Virus record (IMG/VR): IMGVR_UViG_3300046514_000307
Location: 1-34,431 of that record
DNA from: a virus
Reading direction: 5' to 3' (one strand)
DNA length: 34,431 nt
The position numbers and the translations under genes are program-made. Of this stretch, positions 4,414 through 9,952 are shown in pieces (the first letter of the stretch is position 1; each line of letters starts with the position of its first letter). The notes under the pieces were generated by a model that was given only the letters and a program-made list of their open reading frames with translations, was not told the DNA's origin and did no database searches.

Positions 4414-4925
4414 GACTGATCCTCCGGGCACTGTGACGCCTCGCAGCGCCCGAAAACGAGTGCCTCGCCGCCTGAGCCTATCCACCGCAGCGCCGACATC
4501 GACGCGGGCCAATGCTCAGGCTTGCGGTTGAGGCATCGAGCCGACGGCTGCATCGGTTCGATGTTGAGGGCATTGGCTGAACGATGGAGGAAGGCCGGAA
4601 CGACACGCGATCCACACGTCTCGCTGCGCTCGTTCCAGGACTGTTGAATGCCGGCAAGCGCCTGCCCTGCGCCGTCCGGACTATTGGGAACACCGGGCAG
4701 CCCCTTCGTGGTGTCGGGAATCCGGGAGAACCGCTCAAGGCGGCCTCCCTTTGAGAGCGCGTTGAGAGAGGCCTGACGATAGGCCTCTTCGTAGAGATCG
4801 GAACGGAGGCCCGAACGGACCTCGATCCGACCGGAGCCGGCCCAATTGCCGGCCTGATCCGTGAGGGTGAGAATGGCGGCCCGTTGGCCGCTTAGAAACT
4901 CGATGGTGCCGTAAAACTTAAGCAT
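4410..4925 (-). CDS. Hypothetical protein from a leaderless mRNA, 171 aa
   Basis: The start at 4925 (MLKFYGTIEFLSGQRAAIL) is set by the promoter: the -10 box ends 6 nt before this ATG, so the message should begin at or next to the start codon, and no Shine-Dalgarno exists. A longer frame from 4982 would read through the promoter. The first 80 residues look like an alpha/beta fold (AAILTLTDQAGNWAGSGRIEV, DLYEEAYRQASLNAL). The remainder is less structured, with scattered cysteines and tryptophans (PEHWPASMSALRW). The 3' end contains the ribosome-binding site of the next gene. Function unknown; as the first gene behind a controlled promoter it could be an early regulator. Confidence 0.5.
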   Translation of the reverse strand: MLKFYGTIEFLSGQRAAILTLTDQAGNWAGSGRIEVRSGLRSDLYEEAYRQASLNALSKGGRLERFSRIPDTTKGLPGVPNSPDGAGQALAGIQQSWNERSETCGSRVVPAFLHRSANALNIEPMQPSARCLNRKPEHWPASMSALRWIGSGGEALVFGRCEASQCPEDQS

Positions 4926-4931
4926 GAAAGG

Positions 4932-4960
4932 ATTATACACAATACCTGTATTGATGTCAA
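4932..4960 (-). promoter_or_regulatory. Consensus sigma70 promoter (leaderless)
   Basis: On the minus strand TTGACA (4960-4955), a 17-nt spacer, and TATAAT (4937-4932): a perfect match to the bacterial sigma70 consensus in both hexamers and spacing. The ATG of the 171-residue gene begins 6 nt after the -10 box, which places the transcription start at about the A of the ATG. It directs leftward transcription through the small-gene and terminase operon. Confidence 0.85.
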
Positions 4961-4973
4961 GTATACCGGTATT
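4941..4973. promoter_or_regulatory. Twin operator-like palindromes
   Basis: AATACCTGTATT (4941-4952) lies in the promoter spacer and TATACCGGTATT (4962-4973) abuts the -35 box upstream. Both fit the dyad AATAC-N2-GTATT, the second with one arm mismatch. Their centres are 21 bp apart, two helical turns, so two bound dimers would lie on the same DNA face and cover the -35 element. This is the layout of a repressor-controlled promoter. Confidence 0.7.
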
Positions 4974-4974
4974 C

Positions 4975-5367
4975 CTAATCATTCTTCGTATCTTGCGGGA
5001 GGACGGTTCGTTGTAGTCCTTCGTTTACAAACGCCCGTAATCGCGTCAAGCTTGGCCCCTGCGGCAGCGCATCGAGCAAATCGGCGCGTAGCAATACCGC
5101 CACATCCGCGCGAACTACGTTCTTTCGAGATTCTGCTTGTAACCACTGGCAACCATCCTCGGCGCACGATGGATTGAGGTATTTCGCGGCTCGCATGTTG
5201 GCTAACGGATCTGGCCGTCGGTCCCCCTCGGTGTCCAGCACGGCCGCGAGTTCGTCAGCGCAGTAGCCATAAATCCGCAATTCAGCCTCATCGTTGCTGC
5301 GAGCGTAGCCGCGCCAAGTTTCCAGTAGCTCTCGGAGTCGTCGTGTGCGGCGATCCTCGGTGGTCAT
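4975..5367 (-). CDS. Hypothetical protein with one DTEGDR repeat, 130 aa
   Basis: Paralogue of the 213-residue gene over its N-terminus: MTTEDRRTRRLRELLETW, then ADELAAVLDTEGDRR. The latter half (YLNPSCAEDGCQWLQAE, RADVAVLLRADLLDAL, LTRLRAFVNEGL) is mostly helical, with a Cys pair. Start ATG overlaps the preceding TGA (ATGA). Its stop is immediately followed by the twin operators and promoter of the next transcription unit. No known family. Confidence 0.6.
   Translation of the reverse strand: MTTEDRRTRRLRELLETWRGYARSNDEAELRIYGYCADELAAVLDTEGDRRPDPLANMRAAKYLNPSCAEDGCQWLQAESRKNVVRADVAVLLRADLLDALPQGPSLTRLRAFVNEGLQRTVLPQDTKND
5220..5236 (-). repeat. Fifth copy of the in-frame DTEGDR repeat
   Basis: The same 17-bp core as in the gene at 3485-4126, here 1.2 kb away and again in the DTEGDR frame; the 20-bp extended form (with preceding GTC) is complete. 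The next nine bases (AGCACGGCC) also match the copy at 4015, consistent with gene duplication of that particular copy. Confidence 0.8.
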
Positions 5368-8957: not shown

Positions 8958-9191
8958 TCACCGGGTTTCAATTATTTGCTGATGCCGGCGATACCAGGCA
9001 ATCCACTGGACGCACTGGTCAATCGACTGGCACGGCGCCGTATGTGGACACCGGTCCTTGCGTTTCAGCTTCGGATCAGGGAACACGGACTGCCGTAACG
9101 CCAGCGCCGAATCAAGCTCGTCGTGCGAAAACCACTCCGCGGATGGATCCCACTGGCCATCCGCACGCCAATTACCGGATTCGATAGCCAT
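8958..9191 (-). CDS. Hypothetical protein, 77 aa
   Basis: AAGGA lies 8 nt before the ATG, inside the end of the initiator-like gene (20-nt overlap). Sequence is tryptophan-rich (WRADGQWDPSAEWF) with DRCPHTAPCQSIDQC in the middle, a Cys-His cluster, and a C-terminal helix (VQWIAWYRRHQQI). No family recognised. A roughly 45-nt gap to the next gene holds the leaderless promoter. Confidence 0.6.
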   Translation of the reverse strand: MAIESGNWRADGQWDPSAEWFSHDELDSALALRQSVFPDPKLKRKDRCPHTAPCQSIDQCVQWIAWYRRHQQIIETR

Positions 9192-9723
9192 GATTTTTCC
9201 TTCGGAGGGGATTATTTTTCTTATAACGGCTAATAGCCGCGGCCACGGAGGCGTCGGCTTCTGTATTAGCTAGTTGCGTATTTGTTCTTTGCTCTTCTGT
9301 TTCTGATCCTGATCCTGCTTCTGCTCTTGCTTCTGATGGTGTTACCGATGCGTTACTGGTGCGTTTCTTTTCGCGATGTTTACTGACGCGTTGGCGCGTC
9401 TGCTCTTGAATGACCGCCCGCGTCACGAGCCGCCGATGTTTTTCGGCATTGAGCACGATCCACCCACCAGGCACACGCTCAATCCGGCGTCCGTCGTTAT
9501 CAGGATCGCCAGATTCGTCGTCCGGTCCCTCGAGCGCTTTAATAGCCTCCTTCGCTTCATCAAGGCTGACCCGTGCTCGGCCGGCCACATTCCCGACCGC
9601 GGAAAAGTGAACGAATCCCGTTTCGTCCATGCAGGCAATAAATGTGAGCCAGACAATACGGGTCGGCATCGATTCCAGCCAAATAGACGAATCCAGAATC
9701 TTGGTAAATAATTTGTTATACAT
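9172..9723 (-). CDS. Replication initiator-like protein (lambda O-type wHTH), 183 aa
   Basis: N-terminal 100 residues match the phage replication-protein type: YNKLFTKILDSSIWL, TRIVWLTFIACMDETGFVHF, then VGNVAGRARVSLDEAKEAIKALEGPD and RRIERVPGGWIVLNAEKHRRL. This is a winged-helix DNA-binding module like those of lambda O-like and DnaD/DnaT-like proteins. A basic helix (RQRVSKHREKKRT) and a Ser/Thr/Glu-rich linker follow; the tail is basic (RYKKNNPLRRKNHG). No helicase or primase motif is present, so it would load host machinery. The iteron-rich region directly upstream is the expected binding target. The start has no Shine-Dalgarno and abuts a perfect palindrome. Confidence 0.7.
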   Translation of the reverse strand: MYNKLFTKILDSSIWLESMPTRIVWLTFIACMDETGFVHFSAVGNVAGRARVSLDEAKEAIKALEGPDDESGDPDNDGRRIERVPGGWIVLNAEKHRRLVTRAVIQEQTRQRVSKHREKKRTSNASVTPSEARAEAGSGSETEEQRTNTQLANTEADASVAAAISRYKKNNPLRRKNHGYRIR

Positions 9724-9726
9724 GAA

Positions 9727-9952
9727 GCGTTACGGTAACGCTCAATGCGTTACATGTCAATAGCGGAGAGCGCGCAAGGATGGTCGTGGACTGTCATTGA
9801 CATGTCATTGACATTGCTGACATCGAATACACGCGTGTCAGCGATACAGTGTAACGACGCACTGCGTTACTACTGCGTTACTGATGCGTGTCGCCGTGTC
9901 GGTAACACGGTTGTCGCGTGTCGGCGTGTCAGTCACGCCGTGTCGATGTGTC
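9727..9952. repeat. Iteron-rich region, candidate replication origin
   Basis: Non-coding and repeat-dense. Family 1: GCGTTAC, at 9727, 9747, 9864 and 9875, with inverse copies at 9735 and (six of seven bases) 9851; 9727-9741 is a perfect 15-bp palindrome GCGTTACGGTAACGC, and ACTGCGTTACT is an 11-bp direct tandem at 9861-9882. Family 2: TGTCATTGACA, itself a palindrome, in perfect tandem at 9792-9802 and 9803-9813. Family 3: GTGTC, seven times, six of them as three doublets spaced 8 bp (9888/9896, 9918/9926, 9940/9948). ACACGCGTGT (9829-9838) is also palindromic. Repeat arrays beside an initiator-like gene are typical of theta origins. Confidence 0.6.
9732..9760 (-). promoter_or_regulatory. 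Candidate promoter for the initiator-like gene
   Basis: TTGACA (9760-9755), 17-nt spacer, weak -10 TACCGT (9737-9732), then 8 nt and the ATG at 9723. The spacer lies within the dyad GTAACGCTCAATGCGTTAC (9735-9753). Geometry resembles the two leaderless promoters, but the -10 matches only three consensus bases, so confidence is lower. Confidence 0.4.

Follow-up and report, generated by a model that had tools for sequence, protein, structure and literature searches.

The locus formed by a repeat-rich non-coding stretch (9727-9952) and the gene adjoining it is quite likely the control region of an autoregulated phage replication initiator, with the origin embedded in the initiator's own gene. 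It was found in a window of 34,431 bp (the whole stretch of DNA analysed, a virus record of about 62% GC). The core origin is probably located within the gene, at about 9258-9360; lambda O, TP901-1, Tuc2009 and SPP1 offer precedents. This placement is suggested by conserved in-gene iterons, followed by the longest run of T at every third base. The main genes of the window lie on the minus strand, and those recognised include a major head protein, head closure Hc3, NinB and an HNH nuclease. The stretch 9727-9952 separates the structural block from the early genes, and is non-coding, save for overlapping spurious ORFs.

The initiator gene and its relatives

The initiator gene (9172..9723, minus strand), defined by its ORF, its relatives and a predicted structure, encodes a protein of 183 aa, composed of a winged-helix-like N-terminal domain, an iteron-coding linker and a short C-terminus. 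It overlaps the next ORF (9172-9191, within 8958-9191). The protein is a winged-helix-like initiator, from a family without a Pfam entry. Searches of Pfam, PHROGs and PDB sequences gave no assignment: PHROG matches are insignificant (e.g. "replisome organizer", E=0.04), the PF09681 profile (Phage_rep_org_N) is not matched, and the hhalign comparison with PF09681-type proteins, at a probability of 3.7%, is not significant. Membership of the lambda O family was likewise not found, the protein having no Pfam match. AlphaFold predicts, with block-mean pLDDT of 86-98 over residues 11-120, a helical domain with a two-stranded wing; the top Foldseek matches in the PDB are mostly winged-helix DNA-binding proteins, none of them significant.

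Relatives were gathered from IMG/VR as 19 loci, then 53, plus the best 80 sister-group loci. About 110 of the relatives are non-identical, all from IMG/VR and none from isolated phages; relatives were found at 43-71% identity, and one belongs to an Acidobacteria MAG. When isolated phages were searched by tblastn, the window initiator gave one weak match, in the linker region, and the sister group none. Four loci fetched via a neighbouring early gene (L087-L090) contain no recognisable member of the family. The C-terminal region of some longer relatives matches phage primosomal/replisome-organizer proteins; the window initiator is shorter, and lacks the region of this kind found in many relatives. 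The sequence-only reading had placed a winged-helix initiator-like gene next to the repeats: the predicted fold and the replisome-organizer-like C-termini of some relatives both agree with it.

Repeats of the non-coding stretch

Three repeat families had been described in 9727-9952, and all are found at those positions. The first consists of GCGTTAC (plus strand, starts 9727, 9747, 9864, 9875) and GTAACGC (plus strand, start 9735), and includes a tandem of ACTGCGTTACT (two copies, 9861-9882) and the sequence GCGTTACGGTAACGC (9727-9741); the latter, reported as a perfect 15-bp palindrome, does feature two perfect 7-bp arms, but these are separated by one central base. The second is a tandem of TGTCATTGACA (two copies, 9792-9813, plus strand), with GTCAxTGACA repeated at 11 bp, a class of iteron recognised from database loci in initiator linkers. 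The third is made of three GTGTC-N3-GTGTC doublets (9888-9900, 9918-9930 and 9940-9952, plus strand), with an extra single GTGTC at 9835.

The density attributed to the stretch is confirmed by counting repeated 7-mers on both strands: 41 are present, whereas 1000 dinucleotide shuffles average 11.6 and reach 25 at most, and none of the other 226-bp stretches sampled over the length of the window exceeds this count. Its proposed extent proved too narrow: the repeats do fill 9727-9952, but the GTAACGC family goes on in the gene, at 9341-9356.

The stretch is probably composed of an operator and an auxiliary upstream array, with a tandem iteron of the second class. The auxiliary array (9851..9881, minus strand) includes GTAACGC at 9881-9875, GTAACGC at 9870-9864 and an inverted GTTAC at 9855-9851; an additional GTTAC half-site is found upstream (9902..9906, minus strand). 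Arrays resembling 9851-9881 are also present upstream in five other loci (L049, L054, L064, L179, L028).

A predicted promoter operator

The operator (9727..9753, minus strand) is formed by GTAACGC at 9753-9747, an inverted GTTAC at 9739-9735 and GTAACGC at 9733-9727, and overlaps the initiator promoter. The -35 box of this promoter, TTGACA (9755..9760, minus strand), occupies a TTGAC position conserved in relatives, while TACCGT (9732..9737, minus strand), 17 bp after TTGACA, is a possible -10, a weak match judged by sequence; a generic sigma-70 promoter/terminator scan was uninformative, and did not report it. An inverted GTAAC pair, with a distance of 13-15 bp, lies upstream of the initiator in 24 of the 49 loci surveyed, against 0.025 expected, and TTGAC is found 7-8 bp before the operator in 17 of the 19 loci having TTGAC within 20 bp. 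The inverted pair between the -35 and the -10 of the initiator's own promoter is the predicted operator. In three relatives (L001-L003) the iteron operator precedes a small GIY-YIG-like gene, followed by the initiator, apparently in one operon.

Iterons within the initiator gene

Across the 49 loci surveyed, 48 of them relatives and one the window itself, two conserved places are occupied by GTAAC/GTTAC sites: the promoter operator and a tandem array within the gene. An alignment of relatives had been proposed as a way to look for conserved iterons; the relatives do show GTAACGC/GCGTTAC iterons, kept in both places. The in-gene array, which the sequence-only reading had overlooked, falls in the linker that follows the DNA-binding domain (about +355 to +450), where it encodes "NAxVTxxNAxVT". 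Linker sites in this family number 149, against 55.8+-5.3 in synonymous shuffles, while the N-terminal part of the gene is depleted (9 against 25). Their spacing peaks at 10 and 11 bp: an alternation of the two would keep the array helically phased and open, as one frame would make TAA stops. GTAACGC/GCGTTAC, the first of the described families, is the iteron of the initiator, which is predicted to bind it.

The window features two in-gene iterons, fewer than most relatives: GTAACGCATCG (from 9356) and GTAACACCATC (from 9345), 11 bp apart, which encode SNASVTPS (9341..9356, minus strand); one of them is imperfect (GTAACAC). Sites of the initiator type are thus repeated within coding sequence, as in origins of the in-gene type. 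Most relatives carry the operator alone upstream, and the array in the gene; some have no GTAAC sites in either operator or linker. In four loci (L057, L059, L103, L107) the linker of the initiator is interrupted, immediately ahead of the iterons, by a GIY-YIG-like domain, which gives the impression of a nuclease domain inserted into the origin; the domain is MUG113/T5orf172 in L057, while the other loci were assigned by resemblance.

Co-variation of operator and in-gene half-sites

In some relatives GTAAC is replaced by GTAAT or GTGAC, in the operator and in the in-gene array together. For 31 loci the matched fraction between operator and in-gene half-sites is 0.81, against 0.61+-0.03, and none of 5000 permutations reached this value. 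Variants with GTAAT or GTGAC occur in separate parts of the tree, with at least three changes each, so that simple shared ancestry does not explain the co-variation. These data support the action of one DNA-binding domain on both operator and in-gene array. In matching the iterons and co-varying with them, the operator half-sites behave as expected of an autoregulated initiator of the iteron-plasmid type. L108-L110 depart from this pattern, their operator being GTAACG and their in-gene iteron GTCAATGAC: one protein with one specificity does not, therefore, explain every locus.

A candidate unwinding element

Directly behind the in-gene iterons, a T is found at every third base for 17 triplets (9295..9343, plus strand), corresponding to A-ending codons on the coding strand. 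This candidate triplet unwinding element is the longest such run in the window, the maximum in 100 shuffles being 9. It overlaps a candidate DNA unwinding element of about 44% GC (9258..9337), the fourth least stable 80 bp of the window; the least stable (4912-4991) is located where two early genes meet. An unstable, AT-rich element thus lies beside the iterons, as in origins of the in-gene type, and a base is fixed at every third position beside initiator sites, as in elements of the DnaA-trio/DRE type.

In the window initiator 17 of the 19 informative codons at positions 131-150 end in A, against 19 of 91 at positions 1-118. A peak of A-ending codons after the iterons is shared by the two sets of relatives: their fraction is 0.56 in one set, where each gene's own codon usage would give 0.30, and 0.63 in the other, where it would give 0.34. 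Of 114 loci, 41 have a linker triplet run of at least 7. The longest A-every-third run of L049 is located upstream, beside the upstream array, and falls within a 32-codon ORF (2377-2475); since this ORF is linker-like, the run is not a clean proof of independence from codons. The same ORF, which reads like an initiator linker (SVTPASEYEYENEY), is a possible relict of an in-gene origin. The sister group (L121-L186) features other linker repeats, namely GTCCAC, GTCGAC, GTTAGC and TGTCCC, often with an A-rich element of the AGAAGCAG type behind them.

The second and third repeat families

An exact scan of viral contigs for the TGTCANTGACA tandem and for GTCAATGACA tandems found 30 loci, 27 of which are in linkers of initiator genes, a count including several near-duplicates and one locus assigned via a linker-like peptide only. 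Given this location, the second family is a class of iteron of phage initiators. The owners of these linker iterons belong partly to the sister group, partly to the PF09681 replisome organizers. When isolated phages were searched by BLASTN with the TGTCAATGACA tandem, weak matches only were obtained, mostly to T4-like fibritin. A long GTCAxTGAC/ATTGAC array was also observed in a 93-kb contig (L104, around 2333-2530), with no initiator ORF recognised around it.

In the window phage the second family may be bound by the window initiator, may be bound by the initiator of another phage, or may be a relict. It is quite possible, and compatible with an in-gene origin, that the TGTCATTGACA tandem is the site of the initiator of another phage or prophage, or what is left of a replaced module. 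Elsewhere the sequence is indeed an in-gene iteron of other initiators, it is absent upstream of the relatives of the window initiator, and three initiator HMMs, run over six frames, found no second or relict initiator in the window. Against a foreign or relict site, both iteron classes are found together at one initiator locus in L108-L110, as in the window.

The GTGTC doublets are absent upstream of all relatives checked; a link between them and a third class of iteron, sought in the sister group, was not found. The coexistence of several repeat families had been taken to mean several binding proteins. This is borne out in part, as other initiators do use the second family as an iteron; on the other hand, neither the six-frame initiator HMMs nor family scans of about twenty window genes turned up a second initiator or a partition gene, and the GTGTC doublets have no support in relatives.

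Probable location of the origin

From the sequences, their conservation and phasing, the synonymous excess and the co-variation, the following mode of action may be proposed. The winged-helix-like N-terminal domain would bind the GTAACG half-site. On the inverted pair between -35 and -10 the initiator would repress its own promoter, while on the helically phased direct repeats of the linker it would build an initiation complex; this, in turn, would open the neighbouring A-rich/T-periodic element, where helicase loading would start. Several points stand against an in-gene origin: the in-gene iterons of the window are few, the protein is short, no helicase loader was recognised among the window genes scanned, L108-L110 do not conform, and some relatives are devoid of GTAAC sites. 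In addition GC skew, whose computation had been suggested as a check, shows neither a switch at this locus nor an origin signal.

It is unlikely that the non-coding stretch is the main origin, with the in-gene sites playing a secondary role, as the sequence-only reading implied. In its favour, the window phage has fewer GTAAC sites in the gene than upstream of it; L049 and L054 lack an in-gene array but carry arrays upstream, and it is behind such an upstream array that the longest A-every-third run of L049 is located. In relatives, in contrast, what is conserved upstream is the operator, mostly the operator alone, and the array is in the gene, ahead of the unwinding candidate; the triplet element of the window itself adjoins the in-gene iterons, not the upstream ones, and the L049 run, contained in a linker-like ORF, may be a relict.

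Even less probable is a role in transcriptional control alone, where the region would include an early promoter and operators for one or more regulators, and no origin. The conserved geometry of TTGAC, operator and gene, and a position between structural block and early genes, would fit such a role; tandem iterons that are phased and exceed synonymous expectation, and the in-gene triplet run, would be left unexplained. Finally, repeats that arose by chance in GC-rich non-coding DNA are very improbable, and so is a role in packaging or partition: the GTGTC doublets have no conserved counterpart, but the 41 repeated 7-mers exceed the shuffle maximum, conservation in relatives disfavours both for the first two families, and no partition gene was recognised in family scans of about twenty window genes.

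Relation to known systems

An origin within the initiator gene, as favoured here, is an arrangement of an already known kind. In lambda O four in-gene iterons are followed by an AT-rich region (PMC7466680). The lambda analogy drawn in the sequence-only reading holds in that iterons are found beside and within a winged-helix-like initiator gene, and in lambda (L187) they are similarly placed, in a mid-gene linker and before an AT-rich unwinding region. No common sequence family, in contrast, is recognisable between lambda O and the window initiator; the lambda iterons are 18-bp dyads, while GTAACG units spaced by 10/11 bp are found here, and the window adds an iteron-matched operator in the gene's own promoter and a triplet-periodic element.

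RepE of F and RepA of pPS10 initiate at direct-repeat iterons, and inverted half-sites of the same sequence form the operator for autorepression. The window locus shares both direct-repeat iterons and an inverted half-site operator with these plasmids, but its iterons are inside the gene.

The replisome organizers TP901-1 ORF13, Tuc2009 Rep and SPP1 gp38 bind repeats within their own genes (PMC8965321, PMC6316719), direct repeats as in the window; SPP1 has a second repeat set (oriR) elsewhere. Initiator linkers of phi11, phiEf11, A500 and SM1 carry GTAACG arrays and an A-rich triplet stretch; the window protein differs from PF09681-type proteins (phi11, phiEf11, SM1) in having no match to that profile.

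The triplet element resembles the DnaA-trios/DnaD element of Bacillus oriC, where 5'-TnnT-3' is bound by DnaD opposite the DnaA-trios (PMC10201434): in both, a T is found at every third base of one strand, beside initiator sites. The other two positions of the triplet differ, and runs of the window type are not present in all relatives.

What appears to be new is an undescribed initiator family, an iteron-matched operator co-varying with the predicted origin, a putative triplet element and, in the window phage, an upstream array of two iteron classes. More tentatively, these may be features of a large undescribed family of phage initiators with a two-part origin in their own reading frame: switchable iterons, phased at 10.5 bp and co-evolving with the operator, and a more constant triplet unwinding element, which would work like the DnaA-trios/DnaD recognition element. 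Linker codons would then be set by DNA function, and the window phage would have a second, upstream array with two iteron classes.

Sequence alone thus allows a provisional placement of the origin in a group of uncultured phages. Natural variants that change protein, operator and iteron together may make the recognition code readable. If the triplet run is indeed an unwinding element, phage origins would be tied to the triplet-based opening of Bacillus oriC, in a very small system where this could be tested.
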